Origin: Pseudogemmobacter bohemicus
GTDB lineage: Bacteria > Pseudomonadota > Alphaproteobacteria > Rhodobacterales > Rhodobacteraceae
Length of the DNA stretch: 64,000 nt
Assembly (NCBI RefSeq): GCF_003290025.1
Contig: NZ_QNHG01000002.1
Span: forward strand, 124,001-188,000
Reading direction: 5' to 3'
Notes under the pieces: model-generated
What the model was told of the DNA's origin: nothing
Seen by the model: the letters and a program-made list of their open reading frames with translations, nothing else
Database searches by the model: none
Program-made: the position numbers and the translations under genes
In this document: piece by piece, positions 27,816 through 44,385 of the stretch
Layout: every line of letters begins with the position of its first letter
Numbering within the stretch: position 1 is the first letter of the stretch

Positions 27816-27903
27816 CTGTCTGATGGGAATCCGGCTTGGCCGGTCTGTCAGATGGGAGATTGCTCTGGGGCCGAAAACGTTAACTCAACGGATAGGTTCC
27901 GAA

Positions 27904-28368: not shown

Positions 28369-28395
28369 TGATCAGAGGCTGATTTGGGCGGCTGA

Positions 28396-30045
28396 TCATT
28401 TCAGCCGCAGGCGGTTGCGGGATTTCAGACCCTCCCGCGCCCGCGCGATCTCCTGGCTCCGCCGCGCCTCGTCCCAATTGAGCGCGGCGGCAGCCACGCC
28501 GGCGGCCTGTTCAAGGCTCGCATCGGTCAGAATGCCGGTGACAGACAGCGCGGTGCGGCGTTTGACCAGATCCTCCAGATGCACAACCTGTTCATTGCGG
28601 ATGATCCAGCCGAGTTCCTGCAAGCTGTAACCCGGCGCATCGGAAAGCGTGATCGGACGCGGCCCTTCCGCCTTTGCCACATCCCGCGCCGTGGTGCCGT
28701 ACCGGGCGAACAGCGTCCTGACCCGGCCCTGGCCGGCGCCGGTTTCACCCGCGACCTGGGCAATCCAGCCCGCCTGATCAGCCGGATAATCGCGCCCGCC
28801 CCCAATGGCGAGGTCCTGGGTTGACACTTTCCGGGCAACCCCCAGCCGTTTCAGCACCACATCCGCCACCTCTTCCGAGAAGCCCCGGAAAGTGGTCCAT
28901 TTGCCGCCGACCAGCGAGATCACCGGCCAGGTCCTGGCGCCCTCGGCCTCAATCACCGGCGCCGAATGGTCGCGGCTGATCAGCCCGGGATTAGCCGCAT
29001 CCGAAGCCGGAAGCGGCCGGATTCCGGCATAGGCATAGACGATCTGATCCTTCGAGAACGAGAGCCCCGGCAGAAGCGAAGCAATAGCCTGCATGAAATA
29101 GTCGATCTCATCCTCTTCGCAGCGCACATCATCCGGATCGGCCGCCCGGATATCGGTCGATCCCACCAGCGCCCGGCCGAGATAGTCGAACACAAGGCAA
29201 ATCCGCCCGTCATCGGCCTCGAAATAGATCATCCTTCCTTTCAGCGCGGCAATCACCCCGGGATGATCCAGCAGGATATGCGAGCCCTTGGTGCCGCCGA
29301 TCAGCTTCGTCTCCAGACCCAGCTGCGCATTGACCCGGTCGATCCACGGCCCCCCCGCATTCAGCACGATCTTCGGGCGGAAGGCGCGTTCACCGCCGGT
29401 CGCATCGGTCAGCCGGATCACATCGCCCTGGGCGGCAAGGCCGGTGGTATGGTTCAGCACCTCTGCCCCTGGATTGGCGCCCTTGCCATCCATCAGGAGT
29501 TCCAGCACCAGCCGCTCGGGCATCCGGACGGTCGCGTCATAATAGGTGCCTGCGGCAACGATCTTCGGCGTCAGGGGCGGAATTTCCCGCAACGCGCGTT
29601 TTTTGGACCAGAGGCTGTGCTTTGGCATCACCCGCCGTTTCGCACCGTAAAAGTCGTAAAGGCTGAGGCCGATCTTCATCAGCACGGCCCCGCGCGAACG
29701 GGGCGCCGTGGTCGATCCGAACAGCGTCCGGATCGCCGCCGGGATGCCTTTGAACCAGGAGAAAATCGGGATCACCGTATGCAGCGGATGCACCACATGC
29801 GGCGCGTTCCGCAGCAGGAGATTGCGCTCCAGCGTTGATTGCGCGACCAGGCGGAACTCACCCGTTTCCAGATATTTGATGCCGCCATGAATCAGCCGCG
29901 ACGGCGCGGCGGAAGTGCCAGAGCTGAAATCGCCCTTATCGGCGATCACCACGCTGACCCCCTGTTCCGCCAGATCGCGGAAGGTGCCCGCGCCATTCAC
30001 GCCGGCACCAAGGATCAGCACGTCAATATCTTGTATATCAGTCAT
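28396..30045 (-). CDS. GlpD-like FAD-dependent polyol-phosphate dehydrogenase
   Basis: 549 residues. FAD-binding LILGAGVNGAGTFRDLAEQG near 8-27 and GDFSSGTSAAPSRLIHGGIKYLE just after are the DAO/GlpD signatures; VLNAGGPWID and LVGSTDIRA follow, with a GlpA/GlpD C-terminal helical cap. GlpD-type enzymes pass electrons from sn-glycerol-3-P-like substrates to quinone. It shares its operon with an FGGY kinase, so the product of that kinase, a polyol phosphate, is the likely substrate. It is only distantly like eryB (40.2 kb). The start at 30045 has GGTGG 7 nt upstream; 30051 is an alternative. Annotation as true glycerol-3-P dehydrogenase is possible. Confidence 0.85.
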   Translation of the reverse strand: MTDIQDIDVLILGAGVNGAGTFRDLAEQGVSVVIADKGDFSSGTSAAPSRLIHGGIKYLETGEFRLVAQSTLERNLLLRNAPHVVHPLHTVIPIFSWFKGIPAAIRTLFGSTTAPRSRGAVLMKIGLSLYDFYGAKRRVMPKHSLWSKKRALREIPPLTPKIVAAGTYYDATVRMPERLVLELLMDGKGANPGAEVLNHTTGLAAQGDVIRLTDATGGERAFRPKIVLNAGGPWIDRVNAQLGLETKLIGGTKGSHILLDHPGVIAALKGRMIYFEADDGRICLVFDYLGRALVGSTDIRAADPDDVRCEEDEIDYFMQAIASLLPGLSFSKDQIVYAYAGIRPLPASDAANPGLISRDHSAPVIEAEGARTWPVISLVGGKWTTFRGFSEEVADVVLKRLGVARKVSTQDLAIGGGRDYPADQAGWIAQVAGETGAGQGRVRTLFARYGTTARDVAKAEGPRPITLSDAPGYSLQELGWIIRNEQVVHLEDLVKRRTALSVTGILTDASLEQAAGVAAAALNWDEARRSQEIARAREGLKSRNRLRLK

Positions 30046-30808
30046 TCTCATCCACCAGGATCAGGGGAACACCCGCCGCGCGCAAATCGCGCCCGGTGTC
30101 ATCGGGAAGGCCACGGTCGACATAGACCGCATCGAATTCAGTCAGATCCGCAAAGCGGTGCAGCGCCAGTTTGCCGAATTTGGTATGGTCAAGCAGCAGG
30201 ACACGCCGCGCCGCCGCCTTCATCATCGCCTGTTTGACCCGCACCGCCCGTGCGTCCTGGATCAGCGCGGTCGCCCCGCTCGCCCCCGAGGCCGAACAGA
30301 TCACGAGGTTCGCATGCAGCCCCGCCAGCGCGGTCTCGCACAGATGGCCGATGAAGGCATTGTAGGTCGGGTGGTAATCGCCGCCGAGCGCGATCAGCGC
30401 CGGCCCCTCTGGCCCGGCAAGGCGTTGCATCATGCCAAGGCTGTTGGTGATCACCGTCAGCGGGTCGATCCTCGCCAGATGCGGGCCGATGGCCGCGACC
30501 GTGGTGGAATCGTCAAGGATCACCGCCTGGCCCGGCTGGATTTCGGCCATGGCTGCGCGGGCAAGCGCCGCCTTGGCCCGGGCCGCATGGGTCTCGCGCC
30601 AGGCGATATGGCTTTCATAGACACCCGAAGGCTGGGCCGAGACCGCGCCATGCAGTTTCCTGAGCACCCCCTGGCGGGCGAGGTCTTCGACATGGCGATG
30701 GATGGTCATGCGCGAAACGCCGAAGGCCTGGACCAGATCGTCGATCCGGACCTCGCCCTTTTCGATCACCAGGGCGGCGATCTCGTCGCGGCGTCTGGTC
30801 GCGCTCAT
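30038..30808 (-). CDS. DeoR-family transcriptional regulator
   Basis: 256 residues. N-terminal winged helix: RRRDEIAALVIEKGEVRIDD, LVQAFGVSRMTIHRHVEDL and RQGVLRKLHGAVS. The C-terminal sugar-phosphate-sensing domain shows ILDDSTTVAAIGPHL, LTVITNSLGMM and LLDHTKFGKLAL. The start overlaps the kinase stop (ATGA). It lies between the kinase and dehydrogenase genes and so probably senses a product of that pair. EryR of rhizobial erythritol loci is also DeoR-type, but which of the two DeoR genes here corresponds is unclear. Confidence 0.88.
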   Translation of the reverse strand: MSATRRRDEIAALVIEKGEVRIDDLVQAFGVSRMTIHRHVEDLARQGVLRKLHGAVSAQPSGVYESHIAWRETHAARAKAALARAAMAEIQPGQAVILDDSTTVAAIGPHLARIDPLTVITNSLGMMQRLAGPEGPALIALGGDYHPTYNAFIGHLCETALAGLHANLVICSASGASGATALIQDARAVRVKQAMMKAAARRVLLLDHTKFGKLALHRFADLTEFDAVYVDRGLPDDTGRDLRAAGVPLILVDEND

Positions 30809-32325
30809 GCCAGCGCTTCCAGCTGCGGCCAGAGCGACGCCAGCGACGCCGCCAGATCGCAATGCAGCCGGTAACGCCCGGCCATTTCGCGGCTGCGAGC
30901 CGGGTCGGGCTGCCAGGTCTTGCCCAGTGCGGCCAGGTCGCGCGGATCAGCGGTCGGGCTGTCGAACAGCCCCACGCCCGAACCCGCGCAAAGCGCCGCA
31001 GCCCAGGCGGCGGGCTCTTCGGTCGCGGTGACGGTAACGGCCATATCCAGCACATCGGCGAAGACCTGGGCGAAAAGCGGGTTGCGGGAAATGCCGCCGG
31101 TCAGCATCGCGGTCTCGGGCCGGAAGCCGTCGCGCAGGGCATCGACATGGATGCGGTGGTTGAAGGCGATCCCCTCGATCACCGCCCGCAGCATATCCCC
31201 CCGGTCATGCCAGCCCCTGAGCCCAAGGAAGCTGGCCGAGGCCCCGGCACCATGCGGCGAGCCGAAAAGATAGGGGTGGAACATCAGCGTCGAAGGGCGC
31301 TGGAAAGCCGCCTCGATCCCGGGCGTGATCAGGGCGTGAAAGCTCTCGCCCGCTGCCTCGGCCTTTGCCCGGTCATCGCCGCAAAGCGTATCAAGGAACC
31401 AGTCATAATTCGCGGCCGAGGCCGGCGAGATCGACATATTGTTCCACTCGCCCTTCCTCAGCCCATTGCGGCAGAACCAGCGCGGGTCGGTTTTGGCCAT
31501 ATTCGAGACGGTTTCATTGATCGAATAGGTGCCGGCGACAATCGCCACCCGCCCCGCGCCATGCCCGCCGATTCCAAGCGCCGAAGCCGTCACATCATGC
31601 AGCCCGGCGACCACCGGCGTGCCTTCGCGCAGCCCGGTCAGACGTGAGGCGGCCTCGGTCACATGACCGACCACGGCGTCGGGCAGCGAGACCGGCGGCA
31701 GCGCATGGGCCAGCGCCTCAAGCCCGAAAAGGCGCAGGATCCCGGGGTCATAGTCCTGGGTCTGCACATTGGTGAAACAGGTGCTCGCCTCGGTCAGATC
31801 GGTGCCGATCACGCCCGAGAGACAATAGCGCAGCCAGTCCTTGCAGGCGAGGATATGGCCGATTTTTGCGAAGCGTTCCGGCTCGTGGATCCGGATCCAG
31901 GCCAGCAAAGCGGTCGGGGCCGAGGCATGTGGCATCTGGCCCGACAGCTCCAGCGCGCGGGCCGAGATGCCGCTTGCCTCCCACTTGGCCACCTGCTCCG
32001 CCGCCCGGCTGTCGAGCGAGAGCACCCCGGGCCCAAGCGCGGCCCCGTCCTGATCGAGCAGATAGAGCCCGTCCCCATGCGCGGTCGCGGCCACCGCCGC
32101 GATATCCTCTGCGCGACCCGAAACCGCCAGCGCCTCAGAGATCGCCTCGGCCGTCGCCGCCCAGAGCTGGTTCATATCGCGTTCGACATGGCGCGGGCGG
32201 GGCATCAACTGCGGCAGGCGCCGCCGCGCCACGGCAAGCGGGCGCCCCCTGGCGTCGAACACCACCGCCTTGGTCACCGTCAGCCCATTGTCGATGCCTA
32301 AGAGGCAGGGACCGCGCTCGCGCAT
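30805..32325 (-). CDS. FGGY-family carbohydrate kinase (second polyol/ketose kinase)
   Basis: 506 residues. Phosphate-binding LLGIDNGLTVTKAVVFDARG near 8-27, ACKDWLRYCLSG, GLHDVTASALGIGG and MLTGGISRNPLFAQVFADV near 415-435 give the actin-like FGGY fold in order. It belongs near L-xylulose/erythritol-type kinases rather than glycerol kinase (no GQDQSTSS-like start). Start 32325 follows GGGAG. Its operon continues the transporter operon and ends with a GlpD-like dehydrogenase, which is the EryA-EryB logic repeated. The substrate is probably another tetritol or pentitol. Confidence 0.88.
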   Translation of the reverse strand: MRERGPCLLGIDNGLTVTKAVVFDARGRPLAVARRRLPQLMPRPRHVERDMNQLWAATAEAISEALAVSGRAEDIAAVAATAHGDGLYLLDQDGAALGPGVLSLDSRAAEQVAKWEASGISARALELSGQMPHASAPTALLAWIRIHEPERFAKIGHILACKDWLRYCLSGVIGTDLTEASTCFTNVQTQDYDPGILRLFGLEALAHALPPVSLPDAVVGHVTEAASRLTGLREGTPVVAGLHDVTASALGIGGHGAGRVAIVAGTYSINETVSNMAKTDPRWFCRNGLRKGEWNNMSISPASAANYDWFLDTLCGDDRAKAEAAGESFHALITPGIEAAFQRPSTLMFHPYLFGSPHGAGASASFLGLRGWHDRGDMLRAVIEGIAFNHRIHVDALRDGFRPETAMLTGGISRNPLFAQVFADVLDMAVTVTATEEPAAWAAALCAGSGVGLFDSPTADPRDLAALGKTWQPDPARSREMAGRYRLHCDLAASLASLWPQLEALA

Positions 32326-32341
32326 GAAACAGATCTCCCAT

Positions 32342-32358
32342 CCGCACGGGACGTGCGG
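32342..32358 (-). other. Hairpin in front of the FGGY kinase gene
   Basis: Perfect 7-bp stem CCGCACG-GGA-CGTGCGG just upstream of the kinase ribosome site, in the 81-bp gap after the DeoR gene. Beside it, GTTAACTTCACATCAAGTAATGTTAC at 32384-32410 has partly matching arms and could be a DeoR operator for an internal promoter. Confidence 0.4.
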
Positions 32359-32406
32359 TTCTCCGGAAATCACCGTCTCATATTGTTAACTTCACATCAA
32401 GTAATG

Positions 32407-33285
32407 TTACGTCACCACATCCTCGGCACTCAGCGGCGCGAGTTTCAGCCGCACCCCTTCGCGCAGAAGCTGGCTGGCAAGGCCCGGATCCAGCCCGTCA
32501 TCCACGATCACCAGATCAAAGTCGCGCAGGCTGGCCATCGCGTGCAGCGCGCGGCGGGTGAATTTCGAATTGTCGGCCAGCAGGATCCTGCGATCAGCGC
32601 AATCAAGCATGGCGCGTTTGATCTCGGCCATTTCCGGGCTTTGGTGAAAGGCCTGGCCATCGGTGATCGCGGCGGTGGACATGAAGGCCAGATCAACCCG
32701 CAGATCGCGGATGCTGGTGGTGGTCACCGGCCCCAGAAAGGCGTTGCACCAATTGTGCAGCTGACCGCCCAGGCCCAGCAGCGTGACATCGGGCGTCGCC
32801 CGCAGCGCATTCATCAGCGTCAGCGAATTGGTGATCGCGGTCAGCGGCACGCGGGTGGTCAGATGCGGCACCATCTCGAACACGGTGGTGCTGTCATCGA
32901 AGAACGAGGCCTGCCCCGGCTCCAGCTCGGCCGCCGCCATGGCGGCGATGGCGCGTTTCTCGGCCCCCTGGCGGGCGGTGCGCCAGACATCCGAGGCCTC
33001 GATCAGGCTGGTCGGCGCGGCGGAAACCACACCGCGCATCTTGCGCAAAAGCCCGCGCCCGGCCAGGTCGTCCAGGTCGCGATGCGCCGTCATCAGGCTG
33101 ATCCCGAAGCGCGAGGTCAGATCCTCGATCCGCATCGAACCCTCGGCGATCACCGTTTCCGCAATCAGTTGCCGCCGCGCGATCTGGCGGGCATGGCGGC
33201 TGTCAGAGGGAATGGCATCACCCCCCCCCAGCCGGTCGGGTCTCAGATCCTGCAAGGGATCGGACCAGTATTTATTCTCGGACAT
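32407..33285 (-). CDS. DeoR-family regulator with N-terminal extension
   Basis: 292 residues from MSENKYWSDPLQDLRP (GGGAGG 7 nt upstream). The winged helix begins only at about residue 38 (RQLIAETVIAEGSMRIEDLT, then RFGISLMTAHRDLDDL), so it carries some 35 extra residues that ordinary DeoR proteins lack. The sensing domain is normal (FFDDSTTVFEMVPHL, ITNSLTLMNAL, LLADNSKFTRRAL). It lies between the transporter and the second kinase. It may be the EryR counterpart. Confidence 0.87.
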   Translation of the reverse strand: MSENKYWSDPLQDLRPDRLGGGDAIPSDSRHARQIARRQLIAETVIAEGSMRIEDLTSRFGISLMTAHRDLDDLAGRGLLRKMRGVVSAAPTSLIEASDVWRTARQGAEKRAIAAMAAAELEPGQASFFDDSTTVFEMVPHLTTRVPLTAITNSLTLMNALRATPDVTLLGLGGQLHNWCNAFLGPVTTTSIRDLRVDLAFMSTAAITDGQAFHQSPEMAEIKRAMLDCADRRILLADNSKFTRRALHAMASLRDFDLVIVDDGLDPGLASQLLREGVRLKLAPLSAEDVVT

Positions 33286-33400
33286 ATCAGGCCTCCCGTC
33301 AGCCGGATAGCGCATTGCACCTGAAAGGCAAGCAACCGGCAAGCGAAGCGGAGGGAAGCCGGGCCGGGAAACACCGGCACCGGCAGGGAGCGGTCGGAAA

Positions 33401-33423
33401 GCGGGCCGGGGTGACCGGCCCGC
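33401..33423 (-). other. Hairpin after the erythritol-type binding-protein gene
   Basis: Perfect 9-bp stem GCGGGCCGG-GTGAC-like loop-CCGGCCCGC, directly downstream of the binding-protein stop. No T-run follows on the minus strand. The position mirrors the hairpin at 3766-3792 and suggests 3'-end protection giving more binding protein than downstream regulator and kinase. Confidence 0.6.
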
Positions 33424-33432
33424 CCGCAGAAA

Positions 33433-34380
33433 TCACTCCGACAGAACGAAGGGAGCGGTGTATTTGTCGACATTATCCGCAGTGATCAGCAGGCAGTCGA
33501 ACAGCTGCTTTTCCGAGGCCGCGCCGGTTTCACCGGTTTTGATGAACTTGTCGGCCTGAACCACGGCTTCGCGCGAGAAGATCGCGACCGGCTGGAGAAC
33601 GGTATATTGCAGCTCGCCGGCCTTGATCGCCTCGACCGCATCGGGCGAACCGTCGAAACCACCGACCTTGACCTGAGCCAGCTTGCCGGCCTCTTTCAGC
33701 GCAGCAACCGCACCCAGAGCCATTTCGTCATTGCCGGCGATCAGGCCGATAACGTCGGGATTGGCCTGCAGCAGCGACTGGGTCTTCTGGTAGCCTTGGG
33801 TGCGGTCCCAGTTGGCGACTTCCTGACCGGCTTTCACCAGGTCCGGATATTGGGTGATGACGGTTTCATAGCCGTTCGAACGGGTCGCGGCATTGTTGTC
33901 AGCCGGGTTGCCGAACAGCTCGACGAAGTTGCCTTTGTCGCCAACCGCCTCGACCCATTGCTGGGCGCCCAGAGCCGCGCCCTGTGCGTTGTTCGAGACG
34001 AGCTGACCTTTGGCCAGACCTTCCTGGTTGATCTCGGCATTCACGAGGAAGACCGGGATGCCGGCATCGACGGCTTTCTGAACCGCACCGATCGAGCCGT
34101 CGGCATTTGCCGGGTCGAGAATGATCGCCACCGATTTATTGGTGATGGCGGTATCGACCAGGGTGCTTTCGGTATTGGTGTCGCCTTTATGCGAGGAGAC
34201 ATTGGCGGTGTAGCCCAGCTCTTCCGCGGTCGCCTTGGCGATCTCGCCTTCGGTGTACCAGTAGGGGTTGGCGGGGTCATTGACGATGATGGTGATCAGG
34301 CCCTCGGCGGATGCGGCGAAAGCCATCATCGGCAGAGCGGCAGCAGCACCCATCAGCGCGCGGTGGGTCAGTTTAAGCAT
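33433..34380 (-). CDS. eryG: Periplasmic polyol-binding protein (EryG-like, RbsB family)
   Basis: 315 residues with signal peptide MLKLTHRALMGAAAALPMMA (cleavage near ASAEG). Ligand-binding fold: ITIIVNDPANPYWYTEGEIA, SVAIILDPANADGS, IPVFLVNAEIN, ELFGNPADNNAATR, LIAGNDEMALGAVAAL, VGGFDG. Start set by GGAGG before 34380. By position opposite eryABCD and by operon with ATPase and permease, it should capture erythritol, as eryEFG does in Rhizobium. The symbol rests on context, not on a substrate test. Confidence 0.85.
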   Translation of the reverse strand: MLKLTHRALMGAAAALPMMAFAASAEGLITIIVNDPANPYWYTEGEIAKATAEELGYTANVSSHKGDTNTESTLVDTAITNKSVAIILDPANADGSIGAVQKAVDAGIPVFLVNAEINQEGLAKGQLVSNNAQGAALGAQQWVEAVGDKGNFVELFGNPADNNAATRSNGYETVITQYPDLVKAGQEVANWDRTQGYQKTQSLLQANPDVIGLIAGNDEMALGAVAALKEAGKLAQVKVGGFDGSPDAVEAIKAGELQYTVLQPVAIFSREAVVQADKFIKTGETGAASEKQLFDCLLITADNVDKYTAPFVLSE

Positions 34381-34459
34381 GTGTAATCCTCCCAGGGGTT
34401 GCATGCAGTCTTGCGGTCTTGCCCGGTCAGTGCTCCCGCCCGGGCGAAGGTCGTGAGGC

Positions 34460-35497
34460 TCAGGCTTTCTTGCCGCCTTTGCCGTATTGGATCGAGTTCA
34501 TCAGCACCGCGAGCACGATCACCGCGCCGGTGAAGACGGTCTGCCAGTAGGACGAGACGCCGGTGATCACGAGGCCCGCCGACAGGAAGCCGATCACGAA
34601 GGCGCCCAGCATGGTGCCCAGAACGGTGCCGCGCCCGCCGGTCAGCGCCGCGCCACCGATCACCACGGCGGCAATCGCGGTCAGCTCATAGGTGGTGCCC
34701 GCAGTGGGGCCGGCCGAGGTCAGCTGCGACGACAGCACAAGGCCCGCAATCGCCGAGAGCACACCCGACAGCGTATAGACGGTGATCTTGACGAATTTCA
34801 CCGGCACGCCCGACAGTTCCGCCGCGCGCTCATTGCCGCCCGAGGCATAGAGCCAGCGACCGAATGCGGTGCGGCTCAGCACGGCCCAGGCGATGATCGC
34901 GCAGACGGCCAGCACCAGAACCGAGATCGGCACGCCGGCGATCCGCTCGGATCCCAGCCATTTGAAGCCGGTATTGCCCAGCTCGGGCGAGCCCGCCAGC
35001 CGGTTATAGGTCAGCCCGTTGGTCATCAAAAGCGCCACACCCCGCGCCACATACATCACGCCCAGCGTGGCGACGAAGGCAGGCACCTTGAGCCAGGCGA
35101 TCAGCACACCATTTACCGCACCAACCAGCCCGCCGACGACACAGGTGATCACCACCACCGCCCAGACGGGCGGGTAAAGGATGACGCCCATCGCCTCGAT
35201 CTCGACGCCCTGCATCAGCGCGCCGGCAATCACCCCGCACAGCGCCAGGATCGAGCCGACCGAAAGGTCGATGCCGCCATTCAGGATCACCAGCAGCATG
35301 CCGATGGCCAGAAGACCATAGATCGCCACCTGGCTTGCCATGATCAGGAAGTTCGACAGCGTGAAATAATTCGGTCTGAGCAGCGAGAAGACCACGATGA
35401 TCGCGATCAGCGCGAAGAAGGCACGGCCTTCCAGCAGCAGCTTTACGAGGCTGACGCCTTCGCCCTTCGGGGCCGCGGTTTTGGTTGTGTCGGACAT
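34460..35497 (-). CDS. eryF: ABC transporter permease (EryF-like, RbsC type)
   Basis: 345 residues with about ten hydrophobic segments. Typical stretches are VILNGGIDLSVGSILAL, VPAFVATLGVMYVARGVALL and VVIGGAALTGGRGTVLGTMLG. The N-terminal 25 residues are polar (MSDTTKTAAPKGEGVS), lying in the cytoplasm before the first helix. It forms the channel for the binding protein downstream. The longer frame from 35533 overlaps the ATPase gene and is not favoured. Confidence 0.9.
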   Translation of the reverse strand: MSDTTKTAAPKGEGVSLVKLLLEGRAFFALIAIIVVFSLLRPNYFTLSNFLIMASQVAIYGLLAIGMLLVILNGGIDLSVGSILALCGVIAGALMQGVEIEAMGVILYPPVWAVVVITCVVGGLVGAVNGVLIAWLKVPAFVATLGVMYVARGVALLMTNGLTYNRLAGSPELGNTGFKWLGSERIAGVPISVLVLAVCAIIAWAVLSRTAFGRWLYASGGNERAAELSGVPVKFVKITVYTLSGVLSAIAGLVLSSQLTSAGPTAGTTYELTAIAAVVIGGAALTGGRGTVLGTMLGAFVIGFLSAGLVITGVSSYWQTVFTGAVIVLAVLMNSIQYGKGGKKA

Positions 35498-35522
35498 TGT
35501 TCTGTTTCCCCGGACTTCGCTG

Positions 35523-37064
35523 TCAGGCTGCATGCTGCTCGCCAGAGGCGGCCATGATCATTTCCTTGGTGGCGTCAGCGCCGAATTCGGCCGTGATACG
35601 GCCTTTGTGCATGACGATGATACGGTGGGCGATTGACAGGCACTCGCTGACTTCCGAAGTGGTATAGACCACGGCGAGCCCGCGTTTCGCACCCTCGGCC
35701 AGCAGGCGGAACACCTCGGCCTTGGCACCGATGTCGATGCCGCGTGACGGCTCGTCCAGCAGGATCACCTGTGGGTTGGTCGCCATCATCTTGCCGATCA
35801 CCACCTTCTGCTGATTGCCGCCCGAGAGCGAGCCGATCGCCGCATCCGGGCCCGAGGTCTTGACCGTCACCCGTCTGATCGACTCGGCCACCAGCGTCTT
35901 TTCCACGCGGCGCGAGGTGAAGATCCCCCGTGTGAATGCCCCGATAGAAGCCAGGGACAGGTTCTGCCCCACCGACATCGTCTGCACCAGCCCGTCGCGC
36001 TGCCGGTCTTCCGGCACCAGCGCCAGCCCCTGCCCGATCCGCTCGGCGATGGTCAGATGCGAGACTTCCGCGCCCTTCAGCTCGATCCGGCCCGAGGCCT
36101 GGCGGTAACGGCCCGCCAGCGTCTCCATCAGCTCGGTCCGGCCGGCGCCCATCAGCCCGTAAATACAGACGATCTCGCCCGCTTTCACATCCAGCGACAG
36201 GTTGTCGACCACGTTATAGGCATTGCCGCCCGGATCCGGCACGACCATGTTCTGCACCGAAAGCGCCGGCCCGCCGAAATCGTAACCGGTGGGCGGGCTG
36301 CCGAGGTCGTAATTCTCGCCGACCATATTGCGCACGATCCAGTTCAGGTCGATCTCGGCGCGCGGCGCCCAGGCGGTCATCGCGCCATCGCGCAGCACCA
36401 CGGCGTGATCGGTGATCTGCAGCGCCTCTTCCAGATGGTGCGAGATATAGACGATGGAGACCCCTTTCGAGGTCAGATCATTGATCACCTTGAACAAAAC
36501 CTCGACCTCTGCGGCCGAGAGCGCCGAGGTCGGCTCGTCCATGATCAGGATGCGGCTGTCGACCGACAGCGCCCGTGCGATCTCGACGATCTGTTGCTGG
36601 CCAAGGCGCAGATCCTCGACCGGGGTAAGCGGGTCGATATCCTGCTCCAGCTCTTGCATCAGCTTGCGGGCCTGGCGCTCTTCCTCGGAGAAATTCACAC
36701 CGGTCGGGCCTTTGATCTCGCGGCCCATAAAGATGTTGTCGCGCACCGAGAGGTTCGGGGCCAAACTCAGCTCCTGGTGGATGATCGAAATCCCCAGGTC
36801 GCGCGCATGGGTCGAGTCCTGGAAATGCACCGCCTTGCCGTCGAGGATGATCTCACCCGCACTGGGCTGGATGACGCCCGAGAGGATCTTCATCAGCGTT
36901 GATTTGCCGGCACCGTTCTCGCCGAAAAGCGTGGTGACCTGGCCGCGATGGATGTCGAAATTCACACCTTTCAGCGCATGGACCGCACCGTAGGATTTCG
37001 CCACATGGCGCGCGGCGAGAACCACTTCGACGGCATCGGGGGTCTCGGAGGGGCTGCTCATCAC
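35523..37064 (-). CDS. eryE: Sugar ABC transporter ATP-binding protein (EryE-like, RbsA type)
   Basis: 513 residues with tandem ABC domains. Domain 1: FGENGAGKSTLMKILSGV (Walker A) near 48, LRLGQQQIVEIARALS (signature region), ILIMDEPTSALSAAE. Domain 2: GLMGAGRTELMETLAGR, LSGGNQQKVVIGKMM and ILLDEPSRGIDIGAKAEV. Starts at 37064 inside the stop of the DUF2291 gene (ATGA). Powers uptake of the polyol. About 20 residues longer than its paralogue at 5.9-7.4 kb because of N- and C-terminal tails. Confidence 0.9.
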   Translation of the reverse strand: MMSSPSETPDAVEVVLAARHVAKSYGAVHALKGVNFDIHRGQVTTLFGENGAGKSTLMKILSGVIQPSAGEIILDGKAVHFQDSTHARDLGISIIHQELSLAPNLSVRDNIFMGREIKGPTGVNFSEEERQARKLMQELEQDIDPLTPVEDLRLGQQQIVEIARALSVDSRILIMDEPTSALSAAEVEVLFKVINDLTSKGVSIVYISHHLEEALQITDHAVVLRDGAMTAWAPRAEIDLNWIVRNMVGENYDLGSPPTGYDFGGPALSVQNMVVPDPGGNAYNVVDNLSLDVKAGEIVCIYGLMGAGRTELMETLAGRYRQASGRIELKGAEVSHLTIAERIGQGLALVPEDRQRDGLVQTMSVGQNLSLASIGAFTRGIFTSRRVEKTLVAESIRRVTVKTSGPDAAIGSLSGGNQQKVVIGKMMATNPQVILLDEPSRGIDIGAKAEVFRLLAEGAKRGLAVVYTTSEVSECLSIAHRIIVMHKGRITAEFGADATKEMIMAASGEQHAA

Positions 37065-37717
37065 TGCACCGTCACCGCAACCGGAGTCACGCGCCAGGCT
37101 TTCGGATTGATAAGGGTGAAGGCGCCGGTGACCTCCAGCGTCTTGCCGGTCAGGTTCGCGGTGTCGATCCCGTCAAGCACCACCGCTTTCATCGCGCGGT
37201 TGATGGCCGAGCCGGCATCCTGATACTCGATCTGGTTCTTGAACTTGCCGAATTCGATATCGCCGGGCGCATCGCGCAGATCGGTGCCGTTGATCGCCGG
37301 GCCGGTCTGCAGGCGGATGCTGACGCCTTCGGGCATGCCGGCGACCGTCATCTCATAGACGCCCGACTTCGCCTCACCGGCGGTGCCGGTGAATGTCACC
37401 ATCATCACCACGCCGGTGGTGGCGGGGGTGCCATATTCCTTTGACGCCGCCGCCTTATCGGCCTGAACCGCCTGGGCGAGCGTCACCGCGTCAACCGCCT
37501 TCGCGATCACGAATTCCTGGATGCGGGGAAATTCCCCCTGGCCATATGTGTCCGGGGAAAAGGCCTGCTGGCGGGTATCCGCATCGGAACCGACCTTCAC
37601 AACCGTGGTATCCAGCGCAATCGCGGCGATCACCGCCAGGACGGCGCCGCCGATCCAATAGAGGCGACGGGCCTCTTTCCGCGGGGCGGTGGCGGCAGTT
37701 TCCAGGCTTTGGCTCAT
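37061..37717 (-). CDS. DUF2291 membrane-anchored protein of sugar ABC operon
   Basis: 218 residues. A short cytoplasmic N-terminus (MSQSLETAATAPRKEARR) leads into one transmembrane helix (LYWIGGAVLAVIAAIAL), then a periplasmic domain with FSPDTYGQGEFPRIQEFV and a C-terminal beta-rich part. DUF2291 proteins are recurrently found as first gene of RbsABC-type operons in Proteobacteria, including erythritol loci; a role in the transporter is assumed but, to my knowledge, not shown. First gene of the leftward operon; the promoter lies some 210 bp upstream. Confidence 0.85.
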   Translation of the reverse strand: MSQSLETAATAPRKEARRLYWIGGAVLAVIAAIALDTTVVKVGSDADTRQQAFSPDTYGQGEFPRIQEFVIAKAVDAVTLAQAVQADKAAASKEYGTPATTGVVMMVTFTGTAGEAKSGVYEMTVAGMPEGVSIRLQTGPAINGTDLRDAPGDIEFGKFKNQIEYQDAGSAINRAMKAVVLDGIDTANLTGKTLEVTGAFTLINPKAWRVTPVAVTVQ

Positions 37718-37929
37718 GTTCTGGTTCCCGGGAAAGTGGTGTCTGAGAGGGGCACAGACCGGCGCGCTGTCTTGCGGCTGGCACAGCTTGCATGGCCGCC
37801 GGCGGCGGGGGCCAGAACGTCCATGGGCATGACTTTTACTCCTCACCTTGCGACGGTCCCGGGTGTCACGCTCCTCAACGCGCTGGCTTTGGACCAGGGG
37901 ACTTTCGCTTTCGTCTGCGGTCCTGTGAT

Positions 37930-38618: not shown

Positions 38619-40187
38619 ATGGCCGGCACTGACATTCTGATCGGAATCGATGCAGGCACCTCGGTGATCAAGGCGGTGGCCTTTAATCTCGCCGGTCGGC
38701 AACTGGCCTCGGCTGCGGTGCCGAATCGCTATGCGACTGCGGCTGACGGCTCGGCGACGCAGCCTCTGAACCAGACCTGGGATGATTGCGCCCGCGCCTT
38801 GCGCGAACTGGGTGAGCTGGTCACTGATCTCGCCGCCCGCACCGCCGCGCTGGCGGTGACCGGACAGGGGGATGGCACCTGGCTTGCGGGCAAGGGCAAC
38901 AGGGCGGTGGGGGATGCCTGGCTCTGGCTGGATGCCCGCGCGGCGCCGACGGTGGACCGTCTGGCAGCATCGGGCGCCAATCGCGCGCGCTTCGAGGCGA
39001 CAGGCACCGGGCTGAACACCTGCCAGCAGGGCACCCAGATCGCCCATATGCAGGCCTTCCGCCCCGAGCTGCTGGAAGCGGCCGAGGTGGCGCTGCATTG
39101 CAAGGACTGGCTTTATCTGAACCTGACCGGCGTGCGGGCGACCGACCCGTCCGAGGCGAGTTTCACCTTCGGGAATTACCGCAACCGGCACTATGATGAT
39201 CAGGTGATCGCGGCTTTGGGGCTGGAGCATCAGCGCCATCTGCTGCCGCCGATTGTCGAGGGCACCGAGACCACCCATCCGCTCAGCGCGGAGGCCGCAG
39301 GCGCAACCGGGCTCAGGGCGGGAATGCCGGTCAGCCTCGGCTATGTCGATATGGTGATGACGGCGCTTGGCGCCGGGGTCTATGGCGGCGGCGGTCAGGA
39401 TGTGGCCTGTTCGACAGTGGGATCTACCGGCGTGCATATGCGGGCTGTCCGCTGGCAGGATGTGCATCTGAACGACGAGGGCACCGGCTATGTGATCTGC
39501 CTGCCGGTGCCAGGCGTGGTGACCCAGGTGCAGACCAATATGGCGGCGACGCTGAATGTCGACTGGGCGCTTGGCCTTGCCGGCAATGCGCTGAAGGCCT
39601 TCGGGCATGAGGTCAGCCACAAAGAACTGGTCGCGCGCATCGACAGCTGGCTGTCGGAAAGCCAGCCTGGCCAGATCGTCTATCACCCCTATATTTCCGA
39701 GGCGGGCGAGCGCGGACCCTTTGTCGATGCCCGCGCCCGCGCCGGGTTCACCGGGTTTTCGCAATATCACGGCTTCCCTGATCTTTTGCGCGCGGTGACC
39801 GAGGGCCTCGGCCATGCGATGCGCGACTGCTATTCCGCGATGGGCAAACTGCCAGGAGAGCTGCGGCTGACCGGTGGCGCCGCGCGCTCGGGCGCGCTGA
39901 GGAAGATCTTCGCGGCCTCGGTTGATGCCCCTGTCAGGGTGTCTTCGCGCGATGAGGCCGGTGCCGCCGGTGCCGCGATGATGGCCGCCGTGGCCATCGG
40001 CGCCTATAAAACCATGGATGATTGCGTCAACGAATGGGTGATCCCGCTGCTGGGCGCGCCTGAGGCCCCCGATGCGGGTCTCGTTGAAGCTTACAGCCGC
40101 ATTTTCCCCGCCTATCAATCGGCGCGACAGGTTCTGGTCCCGGTCTGGGATCAGCTTTCCCGCGCCCGCCGCCCGTCAGGAGAATGA
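38619..40187 (+). CDS. eryA: Erythritol kinase
   Basis: 522 residues of the FGGY family. ILIGIDAGTSVIKAVAFNLAGR at about 6-26 binds phosphate; AVTGQGDGTWL, HCKDWLYLNLTGVRATDPSE and LRLTGGAARSGALRKIFA follow in family order. EryA phosphorylates erythritol to L-erythritol-4-phosphate. Identity comes from the gene set: eryB, eryC, eryD and two isomerases follow in the Brucella/Rhizobium order. GGAGG lies 8 nt before the start, and the stop is 1 nt from eryB. The second FGGY kinase at 30.8 kb is clearly different in sequence. Confidence 0.93.
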   Translation: MAGTDILIGIDAGTSVIKAVAFNLAGRQLASAAVPNRYATAADGSATQPLNQTWDDCARALRELGELVTDLAARTAALAVTGQGDGTWLAGKGNRAVGDAWLWLDARAAPTVDRLAASGANRARFEATGTGLNTCQQGTQIAHMQAFRPELLEAAEVALHCKDWLYLNLTGVRATDPSEASFTFGNYRNRHYDDQVIAALGLEHQRHLLPPIVEGTETTHPLSAEAAGATGLRAGMPVSLGYVDMVMTALGAGVYGGGGQDVACSTVGSTGVHMRAVRWQDVHLNDEGTGYVICLPVPGVVTQVQTNMAATLNVDWALGLAGNALKAFGHEVSHKELVARIDSWLSESQPGQIVYHPYISEAGERGPFVDARARAGFTGFSQYHGFPDLLRAVTEGLGHAMRDCYSAMGKLPGELRLTGGAARSGALRKIFAASVDAPVRVSSRDEAGAAGAAMMAAVAIGAYKTMDDCVNEWVIPLLGAPEAPDAGLVEAYSRIFPAYQSARQVLVPVWDQLSRARRPSGE

Positions 40188-40188
40188 C

Positions 40189-41694
40189 ATGACCGATATG
40201 ATTGACCTCTTCGTGATCGGAGGCGGCATCAACGGCGCCGGTATGGCGCGGGATGCGGCGGGCCGGGGGCTCTCGGTCGTGATGGCCGAAAAGGACGATC
40301 TCGCGCAGGGGACGTCTTCGCGCTCGGGCAAGCTGGTGCATGGCGGTTTGCGCTATCTGGAATATTACGAATTCCGCCTGGTGCGCGAGGCGCTGATCGA
40401 ACGCGAGGTGCTCTTGAACGCCGCGCCCCATATCATCTGGCCGATGCGCTTCGTGCTGCCGCATTCGCCGACCGACCGGCCTGCCTGGCTCGTCCGGCTT
40501 GGTCTGTTCCTTTACGACCATCTGGGGGGCCGTAAGAAACTCCCCGGCACCCGCACGCTGAACCTGCATCGCGACCCGGAGGGGGCGGCGATCCTCGATC
40601 AGTATAAGAAGGGCTTTGAATATTCCGATTGCTGGGTCGATGACGCGCGGCTGGTGGCGCTGAATGCGCTTGGCGCGGCGGAAAAGGGGGCGAAGATCCT
40701 GACCCGCTCGCCGGTGACCTCGGCGGTGCGGGAGAACGGCGGCTGGACGGTGACTGTCCGTAATCCCCAGGGCGAAGACCAGATTTTCCGCGCCAAATGT
40801 ATCGTGAATTGCGCCGGCCCCTGGGTGTCGGACGTGATCCAGAACGTCGCGCATACGAAATCGACGCGCGGCGTGCGGCTGGTCAAGGGCAGCCATATCA
40901 TCGTGCCGAAATGGTGGGCCGGGCAGAATGCTTACCTGGTGCAGAACCACGACAAGCGGGTGATCTTCATCAACCCCTATGAGGGCGATCTGGCGCTGAT
41001 CGGCACCACGGATATCCCCTGGGAGGGTCGTGCCGAGGATGTCGGGATCGCTGAGACCGAGATCGACTACCTGCTGAAATGCGTGAACCGCTATTTCAAG
41101 GAAAAACTGCGCCGCGAGGACGTGGTTCACGCCTATTCCGGTGTGCGACCGCTGTTTGATGATGGCAAGGGCAACCCCTCGGCAGTCACCCGCGACTATG
41201 TGTTCGATCTGGACGAGACCGGCGGCGCGCCGATGCTGAACGTCTTCGGCGGTAAGATCACAACCTTCCGCGAGCTGGCGGAGCGCGGGATGCACAAGCT
41301 GAAACACATCTTCCCGAAAATGGGACCGGACTGGACCGCGACGGCGAAACTGCCGGGCGGCGAGATGCCGAACGCCGATTATGAGAGCTTTATCAACAGC
41401 CAACGCGACGCCTTCCCCTGGATGCCGCGCGAGTTGATCCGGTATTACGCACGCCGCTATGGCAGCCGGATGAAGGATCTGATCGGGGCGGCTGGCTCGG
41501 TCGGGGGGCTGGGCCGGCATTTCGGCGGCGATCTTTATGAGGCGGAGGTGAAATACCTCGTCGCCAAAGAATGGGCGATGGAGGCGGAGGATATCCTCTG
41601 GCGCCGCACCAAGCACCGGCTGCATCTGACGGCGGCAGAAATCGCGGAATTCACCACCTGGTTCGATGGCTGGAAAGCAGGGGCGCGCGTATGA
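40189..41694 (+). CDS. eryB: Erythritol-4-phosphate dehydrogenase (FAD, GlpD-like)
   Basis: 501 residues. FVIGGGINGAGMARDAAGRG near 8-27 binds FAD; GTSSRSGKLVHGGLRYLEYY and FGGKITTFRELAERG are GlpD-family motifs; the C-terminal domain includes YYARRYGSRMKDLIGAAGSV. EryB oxidises L-erythritol-4-phosphate to L-3-tetrulose-4-phosphate. The start at 40189 has AGGAGA just upstream; the longer in-frame extension overlaps eryA. The stop overlaps the eryC start as ATGA. Confidence 0.93.
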   Translation: MTDMIDLFVIGGGINGAGMARDAAGRGLSVVMAEKDDLAQGTSSRSGKLVHGGLRYLEYYEFRLVREALIEREVLLNAAPHIIWPMRFVLPHSPTDRPAWLVRLGLFLYDHLGGRKKLPGTRTLNLHRDPEGAAILDQYKKGFEYSDCWVDDARLVALNALGAAEKGAKILTRSPVTSAVRENGGWTVTVRNPQGEDQIFRAKCIVNCAGPWVSDVIQNVAHTKSTRGVRLVKGSHIIVPKWWAGQNAYLVQNHDKRVIFINPYEGDLALIGTTDIPWEGRAEDVGIAETEIDYLLKCVNRYFKEKLRREDVVHAYSGVRPLFDDGKGNPSAVTRDYVFDLDETGGAPMLNVFGGKITTFRELAERGMHKLKHIFPKMGPDWTATAKLPGGEMPNADYESFINSQRDAFPWMPRELIRYYARRYGSRMKDLIGAAGSVGGLGRHFGGDLYEAEVKYLVAKEWAMEAEDILWRRTKHRLHLTAAEIAEFTTWFDGWKAGARV

Positions 41695-42623
41695 AACTGA
41701 CGCTTTCCTTAAACACCAACCCGCTGGTGAACCGTTTCGCGGAACCTGCGGACCTGATCGAGACGGTGGCGCGAGATCTGAAGATCCGCGACCTGCAGCT
41801 GACCCATGAATTCATCAACCCGTCCTGGCCCGCCCCGGTGATCCGCCGTCTGACGCGGGAAATGCAGGCGGCCCAGGCGCGGACGGGGGTGCGGGTGACA
41901 TCCGGCATGACCGGGCCTTACGGGCGGCTGAACCACTTTGGCCATCCGGATCCGGATGTGCGCCGCTACTATGTCGACTGGTTCAGGACCTTTGCCGATA
42001 TCACCGCCGATCTGGGTGGGGTTTCCGTAGGCACCCAATTCGCGATCTTCACCTATAAGGATTTCGACGACCAGGCGCGGCGCGAGGAACTCACGCAAAT
42101 CGCCATCGACCACTGGGCCGAGGTGGCCGAACATGCCAAATCCGCCGGGCTGAAATATGTCTATTGGGAGCCGATGTCGGTTGGCCGCGAATTTGGCGAG
42201 ACGATCCAGGAATGTATCGCGCTCCAGGACCGGCTGACGGCGGCGAATATGGCGGTGCCGATGTGGATGATGGCCGATATCGACCATGGCGATGTCACCA
42301 GCCCGAACCCCGATGATACCGACCCCTATGCCTGGGCGCGGGCGGTGCCGAAATACTCCCCGATCATCCATATCAAACAGTCGATGATGGACAAATCCGG
42401 CCACAAACCCTTTACCGCCGGGTTCAATGCCAAAGGCCGCATCCAGCCCGAACCGCTGCTGGCGGCCTTCCGCGAAGGCGGTGCGACAGATAATGAGATC
42501 TGCCTGGAGCTGAGCTTCAAAGAGCGGGAGCCGAATGACCGCCAGGTGATCCCGCAAATCGCGGAAAGCGTGGCCTTCTGGGCGCCGCATATCGACACCG
42601 GCATCCAGGATCTGCATATCTGA
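41691..42623 (+). CDS. eryC: L-3-tetrulose-4-phosphate racemase (xylose isomerase-like TIM barrel)
   Basis: 310 residues. Motifs of sugar-phosphate isomerase/epimerase barrels with metal-binding acids and histidines: LQLTHEFINPSWPAP, SGMTGPYGRLNHFGHPD, GLKYVYWEPMSVGRE, MMADIDHGDVTSPN, IHIKQS and ICLELSFKERE. Once called a dehydrogenase, EryC was shown in Brucella to racemise L-3-tetrulose-4-P to the D form. ATGA coupling to eryB. I am confident of the assignment because sequence class and position both agree. Confidence 0.92.
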   Translation: MKLTLSLNTNPLVNRFAEPADLIETVARDLKIRDLQLTHEFINPSWPAPVIRRLTREMQAAQARTGVRVTSGMTGPYGRLNHFGHPDPDVRRYYVDWFRTFADITADLGGVSVGTQFAIFTYKDFDDQARREELTQIAIDHWAEVAEHAKSAGLKYVYWEPMSVGREFGETIQECIALQDRLTAANMAVPMWMMADIDHGDVTSPNPDDTDPYAWARAVPKYSPIIHIKQSMMDKSGHKPFTAGFNAKGRIQPEPLLAAFREGGATDNEICLELSFKEREPNDRQVIPQIAESVAFWAPHIDTGIQDLHI

Positions 42624-42645
42624 CGCCCGTTTGAACAGGACAGAA

Positions 42646-43593
42646 ATGGCACCGCGCCGCGACATCGACCCGGAAGAAAGCCTCGCGATCCGCGCGGCCT
42701 GGCTGCATTATGCGGGCGGGCTGACGCAGGCGGCGGTGGCAAAGCGGCTGGGGCTGGCTTCGGTCAAGACGCATCGGCTGATCGCGCGGGCGGTGACGGA
42801 TGGCGCGGTCAAGGTCACGATTGACGGCGAGATCATCGAATGCGTGGAATTCGAGTATCAGCTTTCCCGCCGCTACGGCCTTGATTACTGCGAGGTGGCG
42901 CCGGACCTGGGCGAAGAGGGGATGCCTTTGCGCGCGCTCGGCATGGCTGGTGCGGGCTTTCTCCGGCGCGAGATCGAGCGTGGCGAGACGCCGGTGATCG
43001 GTCTGGGCCATGGCCGCACCATGCAGGCCACTGTGCGCCAGCTGCCCCGGATCAATGCGGCGGGCGTCAGCTTTGTCTCGCTTTTGGGCGGGCTGACACG
43101 GAACTACGCCGCCAATCCGCATGATGTGATGCACAGCCTGGCCGAGAAAACCGGTGCGAAATCCTTCGTGCTGCCAGTACCGTTCTTCGCCCGCTCGGCG
43201 GCGGATCGCGAGGTGCTGCTGTCGCAACCCGGCGTACGCGAGATTTTCGACATGTCTGCCAGCGCCGGGCTGAAACTCGTGGGGATCGGCACGGCGGATG
43301 CCGGGGCGGGGCTGGTCGCTTCGGGCATGATAGAGCCGCGCGAGATCGACGAGATCACCGCCGCCGGCGGCATGGGCGAGATGCTGGGTCACTTCTTCGA
43401 CCCGCTCGGGCGCGAGGTGGAAACCAGCCTGACCGCCCGCACGCTTTCGGTCGGCTTCCGGCCGGGGGCGGACCGCATCGTCGCCATCGCGGGCGGCACC
43501 GACAAACACCGCGCCATCCGCGCCGTGCTGGCCAGCGGGCGGCTTTCGGGCCTGATCACCGACGAGCCGACGGCGCGCGCGCTGCTGAACTGA
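42646..43593 (+). CDS. eryD: EryD, SorC-family erythritol regulator
   Basis: 315 residues. Helix-turn-helix AAWLHYAGGLTQAAVAKRLG followed by ASVKTHRLIARAV; sensing domain VIGLGHGRTMQATVRQLPR, FVSLLGGLTRNYAANPHDVM and VGIGTADAGAGLV. EryD represses the ery operon in Brucella and is relieved by erythritol (or a phosphate of it). The start at 42646 has AGGACAG upstream; a TTG at 42631 would add five residues. Placed inside the operon, it gives autoregulation. The related regulator at position 1-532 controls the polyol operon. Confidence 0.92.
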   Translation: MAPRRDIDPEESLAIRAAWLHYAGGLTQAAVAKRLGLASVKTHRLIARAVTDGAVKVTIDGEIIECVEFEYQLSRRYGLDYCEVAPDLGEEGMPLRALGMAGAGFLRREIERGETPVIGLGHGRTMQATVRQLPRINAAGVSFVSLLGGLTRNYAANPHDVMHSLAEKTGAKSFVLPVPFFARSAADREVLLSQPGVREIFDMSASAGLKLVGIGTADAGAGLVASGMIEPREIDEITAAGGMGEMLGHFFDPLGREVETSLTARTLSVGFRPGADRIVAIAGGTDKHRAIRAVLASGRLSGLITDEPTARALLN

Positions 43594-43605: not shown

Positions 43606-44385
43606 ATGGACCAGAAGACCTGGACGGGGAAAACCTGGATCGGCACCAACTGGAAGATGCACAAGGACTGGGCGGCGGCGAAGCGCTTTGCCGAGGGGTT
43701 GATCGCGTCTGACAAAGACCGCGATCCGCGCATCCAGCGTTTCATCATCCCGCCCTATCTTTATCTGCGTGAAATCAAAGAGATGCTGAAGGATACTTCG
43801 GTGAGGGTCGGCGCGCAGAACATGCATTGGGAATCGGAAGGCGCCTTTACCGGCGAGATTTCCCCGATGATGCTGAAGGATGCCGGGCTCGATATGGTCG
43901 AGCTGGGCCATTCCGAGCGGCGCGAGATGTTTGGCGAAACCGATGAGGGCGTCGGCCTGAAAACCGAAGCTGCGATCCGGCATGGTCTCACGCCGCTGAT
44001 CTGCATTGGCGAAACGCTCGAAGACCGCAATTCGGGCCGCGCAACCGAGGTGCTGGCGAAACAGACCCGCGCCGCGCTGGCGCGCCTTTCGTCCGAGCAG
44101 AAACAGGCCGAAATCCTGCTGGCCTATGAGCCGGTCTGGGCCATTGGCGTCAATGGCATCCCGGCAAAAGCCGATTACGCCGATCAACGCCAGGCAGAGA
44201 TCATCGCTGTCGCCACCGAGGTTCTGGGCCGCCGCGTGGCCTGTCTTTATGGCGGCTCTGTCAATCCCGGCAATTGCGAGGAGCTGATCCAGTGCCCGCA
44301 TATTGACGGTCTTTTCGTCGGTCGCTCGGCCTGGGAGGTCGAGGGCTATCTGGGTATCATGGCGCAAGTCAGCGCCAAACTGTGA
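43606..44385 (+). CDS. eryH: D-3-tetrulose-4-phosphate isomerase (EryH/TpiA2, triose-phosphate-isomerase-like)
   Basis: 259 residues. TIM motifs: [10 protein letters not shown] (N and K of the active site), [13 protein letters not shown] (catalytic His), [16 protein letters not shown] (catalytic Glu) and [10 protein letters not shown] at the phosphate-binding end. The divergent AYEPVWAIG is retained. In Brucella TpiA2 converts D-3-tetrulose-4-P to D-erythrulose-4-P rather than serving glycolysis. AAGGGGC precedes the start. Housekeeping triose-phosphate isomerase would be the alternative, but the operon position argues for EryH. Confidence 0.9.

Follow-up and report, generated by a model that had tools for sequence, protein, structure and literature searches.

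Gene content of the erythritol locus and control of its downstream genes

The window analyzed here is a 64,000-nucleotide stretch of the Pseudogemmobacter bohemicus genome (contig NZ_QNHG01000002.1, positions 124,001 to 188,000; positions below are those of the window), and it contains an erythritol (ery) locus together with a second pair of genes, kin2 and glpD2, for an FGGY kinase and a GlpD-like flavin adenine dinucleotide (FAD)-dependent dehydrogenase. The source genome, 5.6 Mb in 16 contigs, is Paracoccus-like, with Paracoccus sp. IB05 the closest relative among the compared loci (glpD2 identity 94%). We suggest that kin2 and glpD2 may form a second kinase-first entry branch for tetritols, with threitol the most likely substrate, and we give this reading roughly even chances. 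We note that substrate, products, and induction are predicted throughout, from gene content, cohesion, co-occurrence, and motif association.

The locus consists of two divergent arms (Table 1). The leftward arm, on the minus strand, runs in the order DUF2291, eryE, eryF, eryG, DeoR1, kin2, DeoR2, and glpD2, and the rightward arm contains eryA, eryB, eryC, eryD, eryH (tpi), and eryI (rpiB). Each of the four genes after eryG is open from ATG to stop, and the domain matches of all four products exceed the Pfam cut-offs. The existence, position, and order of a DeoR regulator, FGGY kinase, DeoR regulator, and GlpD-like enzyme, as given in the initial annotation, are thus borne out by reading frames and domains. 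The close spacing it described at the last two joints is also evident from the coordinates: the kin2 stop and the DeoR2 start share an ATGA, and the overlap of DeoR2 with glpD2 is 14 bases with one choice of ATG and 8 with another. The other two joints are wide, with 147 bases between eryG and DeoR1 and 81 bases between DeoR1 and kin2.

One alternative is that these four genes are a mere tail of the eryEFG operon, co-transcribed with it and induced by erythritol alone. Strand and order are the same in many loci and the last two joints are tight, both of which favor this explanation, but we consider it rather unlikely given the sequences that separate eryG from kin2. We surveyed 69 distinct glpD2 loci (70 stretches, of which L215 duplicates the L010 record). 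Perfect stems of at least 8 bp were found within 70 bases after eryG in 23 of 30 gaps leading to DeoR1 and in 11 of the 17 leading to kin2, compared with shuffle means of 0.47 and 0.40, respectively (shuffling kept dinucleotides where successful and otherwise composition). The T-run of the window hairpin is short (TTT), so this structure could attenuate or stabilize instead of terminating. A general consensus scan of positions 27700 to 38700 listed neither the hairpin at 33401-33423 nor the kin2 promoter described below, and the one promoter-like and six terminator-like sites it did list were not above shuffles.

Upstream of kin2, the operator-like pattern TAAC-N16-WTMAC was present in all seven loci with DeoR2 and in none of 23 loci without it, counts that include the pattern's own sites, since it was derived from and fixed on these first 30 loci. 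Among 40 later loci, one of which (L215, without DeoR2) is a record already in the first set, the exact pattern occurred in two of eight with DeoR2 and none of 32 without. With a matrix built from the seven sites, scores were 8.7-34.1 across all eight later DeoR2 loci, the weakest of which (L188, 8.7) is marginal, and no higher than 2.2 in 31 of the 32 later loci without DeoR2. The exception, at 17.4, was L224 (G317 C1:424000-443000), where a diverged kin2 (54%) and glpD2 (48%) are followed by a DeoR-like gene and preceded by an operator-like site; this pair may have another substrate. Within the window, the exact pattern occurs once in 64 kb (0.14 expected, the pattern being derived partly from that site), and a leave-out matrix scored the window operator at 35.0, the highest score of an unrelated site in the window being 11.7.

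A promoter-like pattern, TTGA[TC]G-17-[TG]A[TC]GNT, which was picked after inspection of the sequences, overlaps the operator motif. It precedes kin2 in 10 of the 15 DeoR2 loci (not in L020, L095, L100, L187, and L188) and is absent upstream of kin2 in all 54 loci without DeoR2. There is also a weak candidate for a separate DeoR1 promoter 3' of the hairpin: TTG[CG][CT]-N17/18-TA, likewise picked after inspection, matched 12 of 30 gaps, several of them in near-identical relatives, compared with 0.68 in shuffles (largest 6). Judged from these patterns, kin2, deoR2, and glpD2 probably form a separate unit controlled by DeoR2, which transcription from eryEFG may also reach by read-through. The hairpin after eryG and the DeoR2-linked operator and promoter before kin2 speak against both the eryEFG tail and the single uninterrupted operon of the initial annotation, and in other loci the pair lies elsewhere in the locus or genome. 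The two DeoR proteins, which share 42.7% identity and both combine HTH_DeoR and DeoRC domains as expected of DeoR/GlpR-type regulators, had been taken to imply two effectors. They are suggestive of two signals, but a DeoR1 orthologue lies 5' of the pair in only 31 of the 69 loci and DeoR2 between its genes in only 15, so neither regulator is essential to the route.

Distribution of the gene pair and its association with EryC

The kin2-glpD2 gene pair is not new: public genomes already contain it, labelled with generic names. In six annotated plasmid records that we compared, its products are called "(FGGY-family) carbohydrate kinase" and "glycerol-3-phosphate dehydrogenase/oxidase". In four of these records, those of Rhizobium johnstonii 3841 pRL12, Sinorhizobium sp. 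B11, Paracoccus sp. TOH, and P. seriniphilus, the pair comes after eryEFG; in the other two, from Paracoccus sp. AK26 and Shinella sp. HZN7, it is found by itself. It is also found on genome contigs of Gemmobacter, Tabrizicola, Rhodobacter, and Zobellella. Across the survey, kin2 was a same-strand neighbor of glpD2 in 68 of 69 loci, and an ery gene lay within the stretch in at least 56 of 69, a lower bound because stretch lengths vary (L024 is counted as lacking ery genes, yet the end of eryG lies at its contig edge). In seven loci (L097, L099, L101, L102, L201, L203, and L205), eryH, eryI, kin2, and glpD2 follow one another on one strand.

EryC was present in all 15 genomes with the pair, including the source genome, and this association held in three larger samples. 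Among 125 genomes of Paracoccus, the genus of P. fontiphilus, 27 had glpD2, 49 had EryC (counting a fragment with a stop in G341 and a fragment at a contig start in G647), and 27 had both. The corresponding numbers were 30, 57, and 30 in a sample of 247 Rhizobiaceae genomes and 11, 17, and 10 in a sample of 295 genomes from the family of the source genome. These counts require a glpD2 identity of at least 66% in Paracoccus and at least 57% in the family sample, which set aside two Paracoccus matches at 46-48% and 26 family-sample genomes with weaker matches only (34-47%); in Rhizobiaceae, a strict E-value kept weaker matches off the list. Overall, EryC was found in 67 of 68 glpD2-bearing genomes, with overlap between the samples not removed.

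Co-occurrence was assessed by Fisher tests, which ignore shared ancestry, and the cases in which the two genes are unlinked are more telling. Six Paracoccus genomes (G002, G003, G005, G007, G009, and G309) carry the pair on another contig with no ery gene in the surrounding stretch, and all six have EryC and an eryG of 82-85%. In three Rhizobiaceae genomes (G521, G596, and G656), the pair lies 242-244 kb from eryC. Three Paracoccus genomes with pair and eryC on different contigs (G351, G378, and G399) were left out of the unlinked count. The co-occurrence with EryC and the unlinked eryG fit the earlier suggestion of a second kinase-first route that uses the erythritol transporter and downstream enzymes.

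Genes for a class II fructose-bisphosphate aldolase were present in 14 of 57 ery-bearing stretches (L009, at 15714-16775, L010, L095, L101, L102, L187, L199, L213, L215, L216, L218, L219, L221, and L223) and in none of the 13 stretches without ery genes, so this aldolase tracks the ery locus and not the pair. Neither an isomerase nor an aldolase was constant beside the pair in the stretches surveyed. In the part of PMC5118466 cited here, pRL120196 is given as a fructose-bisphosphate aldolase.

Predicted pathway and relationships of the two enzymes

In its most specific form, to which we give less than even odds, our proposal is tentative: kin2 and glpD2 may encode an L-threitol kinase and an L-threitol-4-phosphate dehydrogenase, a cassette from another kinase/GlpD lineage that would enter the erythritol pathway at EryH, below EryC, under its own DeoR2 switch. 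The polyol, most likely threitol, would be taken up by EryEFG, and kin2 would phosphorylate a terminal hydroxyl to give threitol-4-phosphate. GlpD-type enzymes, as established for GlpD itself, oxidize the carbon beside CH2-O-P; glpD2 would likewise oxidize the carbon adjoining the phosphate-bearing carbon, as do GlpD and EryB, to give an erythrulose-1-phosphate. With L-threitol and GlpD-like stereochemistry, this would be L-erythrulose-1-phosphate (D-3-tetrulose-4-phosphate), which EryC produces and EryH takes as its substrate, and EryC would be bypassed; D-threitol would lead to the EryB product, and EryC would then be needed. EryH and EryI would complete the conversion to erythrose-4-phosphate. 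DeoR2 would control kin2-deoR2-glpD2 from the operator overlapping the promoter, making the branch inducible apart from eryEFG.

Fischer and Cahn-Ingold-Prelog (CIP) bookkeeping shows that C3 of L-threitol-4-phosphate matches C2 of sn-glycerol-3-phosphate and C3 of L-erythritol-4-phosphate in geometry, and oxidizing this carbon leaves the S center of L-erythrulose-1-phosphate. This stereochemistry agrees with the role of EryC as a D- to L-erythrulose-1-phosphate epimerase, as described in the portion of PMC10733421 cited here, and we count the agreement in favor of threitol. For either threitol, two enzymes should suffice, and two are present.

The end product from a pentitol would be a pentulose-1-phosphate, and an aldolase would be required. 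The pair might serve a pentitol or other polyol in this way, sharing the ery transporter and relying on an aldolase encoded elsewhere to split the pentulose-1-phosphate. Consistent with this, the EryA and transporter of S. meliloti also handle adonitol and L-arabitol (PMC3599248, in part), kin2 is a broad FGGY relative (XylB 211 bits, LsrK 178 bits), a class II aldolase gene directly adjoins glpD2 in L009, L199, and L213, and an aldolase forms part of a sister cassette in the source genome. We nevertheless consider a pentitol unlikely, since the class II aldolase does not track the pair, EryC, which pentitols do not need, accompanies nearly every glpD2, and the pair adjoins eryH-eryI in seven loci. 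With no ketose-1-phosphate aldolase constant beside the pair, pentitols seem less likely than threitol. The initial annotation had the transporter importing several tetritols or pentitols, each with a kinase-first route; the tetritol part of this idea fits the distribution, and the pentitol part is weakened.

The sister cassette (L092, G000 C3:575000-594900) contains genes for a SorC-type regulator, an aldo/keto reductase, a GlpD-like enzyme (46%), an FGGY kinase (37%), and a GMC oxidoreductase, with a DeoC/LacD-type aldolase gene between the GlpD-like and kinase genes. We read it as a polyol route, and its presence in the same genome indicates that a kinase plus a GlpD-like enzyme is a recurrent cassette. 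Our reading is that a cassette partner consumes the ketose-1-phosphate: the aldolase in the sister cassette, and EryC, EryH, and EryI beside kin2 and glpD2.

The two enzymes are distant homologues of the first pair, as had been proposed, with 30% identity between kin2 and EryA and 29.7% between glpD2 and EryB. In trees rooted on Escherichia coli sequences, the kin2 and glpD2 strings fell outside the EryA and EryB clades, in clades beside them. Support was 0.854 for the kin2 clade, 0.105 for glpD2 alone, and 0.947 for glpD2 with the sister enzymes, apart from EryB; kin2 grouped with four of six sister-type kinases (0.991, 0.996) and then with EryA (0.983). The nearest relatives of kin2 and glpD2, as placed by these trees, are those of a separate kinase/GlpD cassette and not copies of eryAB. 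An eryAB duplication is ruled out by the roughly 30% identity and the trees, and the statement that the pair repeats EryA-EryB does not stand if duplication was meant.

Neither protein reached the cut-off of any NCBIfam model that it matched: kin2, for instance, scored 111 bits against a glycerol-kinase equivalog cut-off of 590.35, and glpD2 scored 259.6 and 233.3 against GlpD equivalog cut-offs of 360 and 352. We take the roles and numbering of GlpK residues R83 and E84, and of the GlpD residues named below, as assumed. At the E84 position, kin2 has Asp in all 61 strings, and at R83 it has Gly in 60 of 61, some of these strings being truncated copies of one protein. EryA has Gly-Asp at the two positions in 17 of 17 sequences. 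Only kin2 and EryA carry Gly-Asp among the 12 FGGY kinases of the source genome; it was not found in the other ten or in E. coli GlpK, LsrK, and XylB. The dehydrogenase glpD2 retains Y55, H233, R317, R332, and K354, as expected of a GlpD-fold polyol-phosphate dehydrogenase, and in all 49 orthologue strings has Lys where E. coli GlpD has R54. EryB has Arg there in 36 of 36, and the sister enzymes have Arg in 16 of 23 and Lys in the remainder.

The shared Gly-Asp motif could also reflect a second route for erythritol itself, with kin2 acting on the other end of the molecule or serving as a paralogous kinase for other conditions and glpD2 feeding the same pool. The common transporter and locus and the clade that joins kin2, four sister kinases, and EryA in the rooted tree are compatible with this. 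We find it improbable, since eryA or eryB is present in 55 of 57 ery-bearing stretches, making such a route redundant, the separate DeoR2-linked operator suggests a separate signal, and the pair is of another lineage than eryAB. A plain glycerol pathway, with kin2 as glycerol kinase and glpD2 as glycerol-3-phosphate dehydrogenase, was the alternative that the initial annotation set against its own proposal, and we rejected it as highly improbable: family membership and the presence of only three EryB/GlpD-like proteins in the genome at E 1e-20 (EryB, glpD2, and the sister enzyme) favor it, but kin2 and glpD2 fall below all cut-offs, kin2 lacks the GlpK R83/E84 pair in 61 of 61 strings, a true GlpK is encoded elsewhere and exceeds both of its cut-offs (669.3 vs 498; 645 vs 590.35), and EryB passes the GlpD cut-offs (848.2 vs 352) and could serve glycerol.

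Several observations weigh against the threitol branch. The co-occurrence of glpD2 and EryC is inflated by shared ancestry and linkage, and the unlinked cases perhaps represent two lineages. G064 (L098, C1:78500-98400) has glpD2 (57%) without an adjoining kin2, EryC, or eryG, and among ten open reading frames scanned there we found no polyol genes besides glpD2 (domains were PD40/DPPIV_N, DUF475/TerC, Exo_endo_phos, and LysR). EryC genomes without glpD2 are common (7 of 17 in the family sample, 22 of 49 in Paracoccus, and 27 of 57 in Rhizobiaceae), and the aldolase genes adjoining glpD2 in three loci make a route through an aldolase conceivable. The Gly-Asp motif is indirect evidence and occurs in a diverged relative as well (L131, the one of six sister-type kinases with Asp at the E84 position), and Lys at R54 is shared with 7 of 23 sister enzymes. 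The choice between D- and L-threitol rests on assumed GlpD stereochemistry, which the R54K change could alter.

Other genes were noted in the window and genome. A RibH-like gene (6,7-dimethyl-8-ribityllumazine [DMRL] synthase, PF00885) at 27823-28368 on the plus strand is convergent to glpD2 and is the sole match of its kind in the source genome at E 1e-3. Homologues were present in 13 of 70 pair-locus stretches, convergent and near glpD2 in ten and between eryC and eryD in L097. Its product possibly contributes to flavin supply or is a divergent enzyme acting on C4 phosphates. The true GlpK gene lies at L140 (G000 C1:1208500-1228400) with no EryB/GlpD-like match nearby. Among the proteins of the genome, EryB alone was found to lie near canonical GlpD, and it may therefore serve glycerol as well.

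Table 1. Features of the erythritol locus and the adjoining kin2-glpD2 genes in the window
Feature	Position	Strand	Evidence
glpD2, GlpD-like FAD dehydrogenase; predicted threitol-4-phosphate dehydrogenase	28396..30051	-	DAO + DAO_C
DeoR2, regulator; co-occurs with specific operator-like site 5' of kin2	30038..30808	-	HTH_DeoR + DeoRC
kin2, FGGY kinase; predicted threitol kinase	30805..32325 (counted from ATG)	-	FGGY_N + FGGY_C
Promoter-like TTGATG-17-GACGGT, overlaps operator	32372..32400	-	pattern upstream of kin2 in DeoR2 loci
Predicted DeoR2 operator TAAC-N16-TTAACA	32384..32409	-	exact pattern + leave-out matrix
DeoR1, second DeoR/GlpR-type regulator	32407..33285	-	HTH_DeoR + DeoRC
9-bp GC hairpin 3' of eryG; possible attenuator or mRNA 3' stabilizer	33401..33423	-	z -2.76
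eryG, substrate-binding protein, shared transporter	33433..34404	-	Peripla_BP_4; 82% to R. johnstonii pRL12 locus
eryF, permease	34460..35533	-	BPD_transp_2
eryE, ATP-binding protein	35523..37064	-	ABC_tran
DUF2291 lipoprotein, head of eryEFG	37061..37717	-	
eryA, erythritol kinase	38619..40187	+	FGGY_N/C; 68% to R. johnstonii
eryB	40189..41694	+	DAO, DAO_C; 78% to R. johnstonii
eryC, tetrulose-phosphate racemase, shared step	41691..42623	+	AP_endonuc_2; 83% to R. johnstonii
eryD, regulator	42631..43593	+	Sugar-bind; 67% to R. johnstonii
eryH (TpiA2), isomerase, shared step	43606..44385	+	TIM; 65% over available part of R. johnstonii
eryI (RpiB), isomerase, shared step	44396..44857	+	LacAB_rpiB

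Comparison with known systems

The closest described arrangement is that of R. johnstonii 3841 pRL12, which shares 52-83% identity with the window in eryABCD, part of eryH, eryEFG, and the DUF2291 head gene (eryI is beyond the stretch compared) and likewise carries DeoR1, kin2, and glpD2 after eryG. The window differs from pRL12 in two ways: DeoR2 separates kin2 from glpD2, and eryD (ending at 43593) is directly adjacent to eryH (starting at 43606). In pRL12 a DeoR gene that we take, by its position, to be EryR lies between eryD and eryH; it gave no separate match in the window, and no EryR lies beside eryH and eryI there. All other components of the R. leguminosarum-type locus, arranged as eryEFG and eryABCD-eryR-tpiB-rpiB (Geddes 2013, PMC3599248, in part), are present in the window, namely eryABCD, an eryEFG-type transporter, and tpi/rpiB. 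The available main text of that study contains no occurrence of DeoR, dehydrogenase, or threitol and does not mention the kin2-glpD2 pair.

The eryA, eryB, eryC, eryH, and eryI genes match the Brucella pathway, in which EryB oxidizes L-erythritol-4-phosphate, EryC racemizes the product, and EryH and EryI lead to erythrose-4-phosphate (PMC5992420, in the section cited): kinase, FAD dehydrogenase, racemase, and two isomerases are all found in the window. Unlike in Brucella, kin2 and glpD2 would add a second entry to the same isomerases. The glycerol pathway of GlpK and GlpD has the same make-up of FGGY kinase and GlpD-fold dehydrogenase, but kin2 and glpD2 differ from it in falling under the curated cut-offs and in the replacement of R83/E84 by Gly-Asp and of R54 by Lys.

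No threitol kinase or bacterial threitol-phosphate route was found in the literature searched (Yost 2006 was outside the search). In Mycobacterium smegmatis, the routes for D-threitol, L-threitol, and erythritol converge on erythrulose phosphates and erythrose-4-phosphate, and the portions of the two studies cited here do not describe the kin2-glpD2 pair (PMC10733421, PMC12780249). Those routes form erythrulose first and phosphorylate it next, whereas the predicted route in the window has the kinase first and the GlpD-type enzyme second. If our proposal is correct, a pair of genes widespread among rhizobia and Paracoccus-like bacteria would gain a function and a likely annotation error would be corrected. 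The erythritol locus would then serve tetritols in general, with two points of entry and a single exit, and the kin2-glpD2 branch would be the kinase-first counterpart to the mycobacterial threitol routes.

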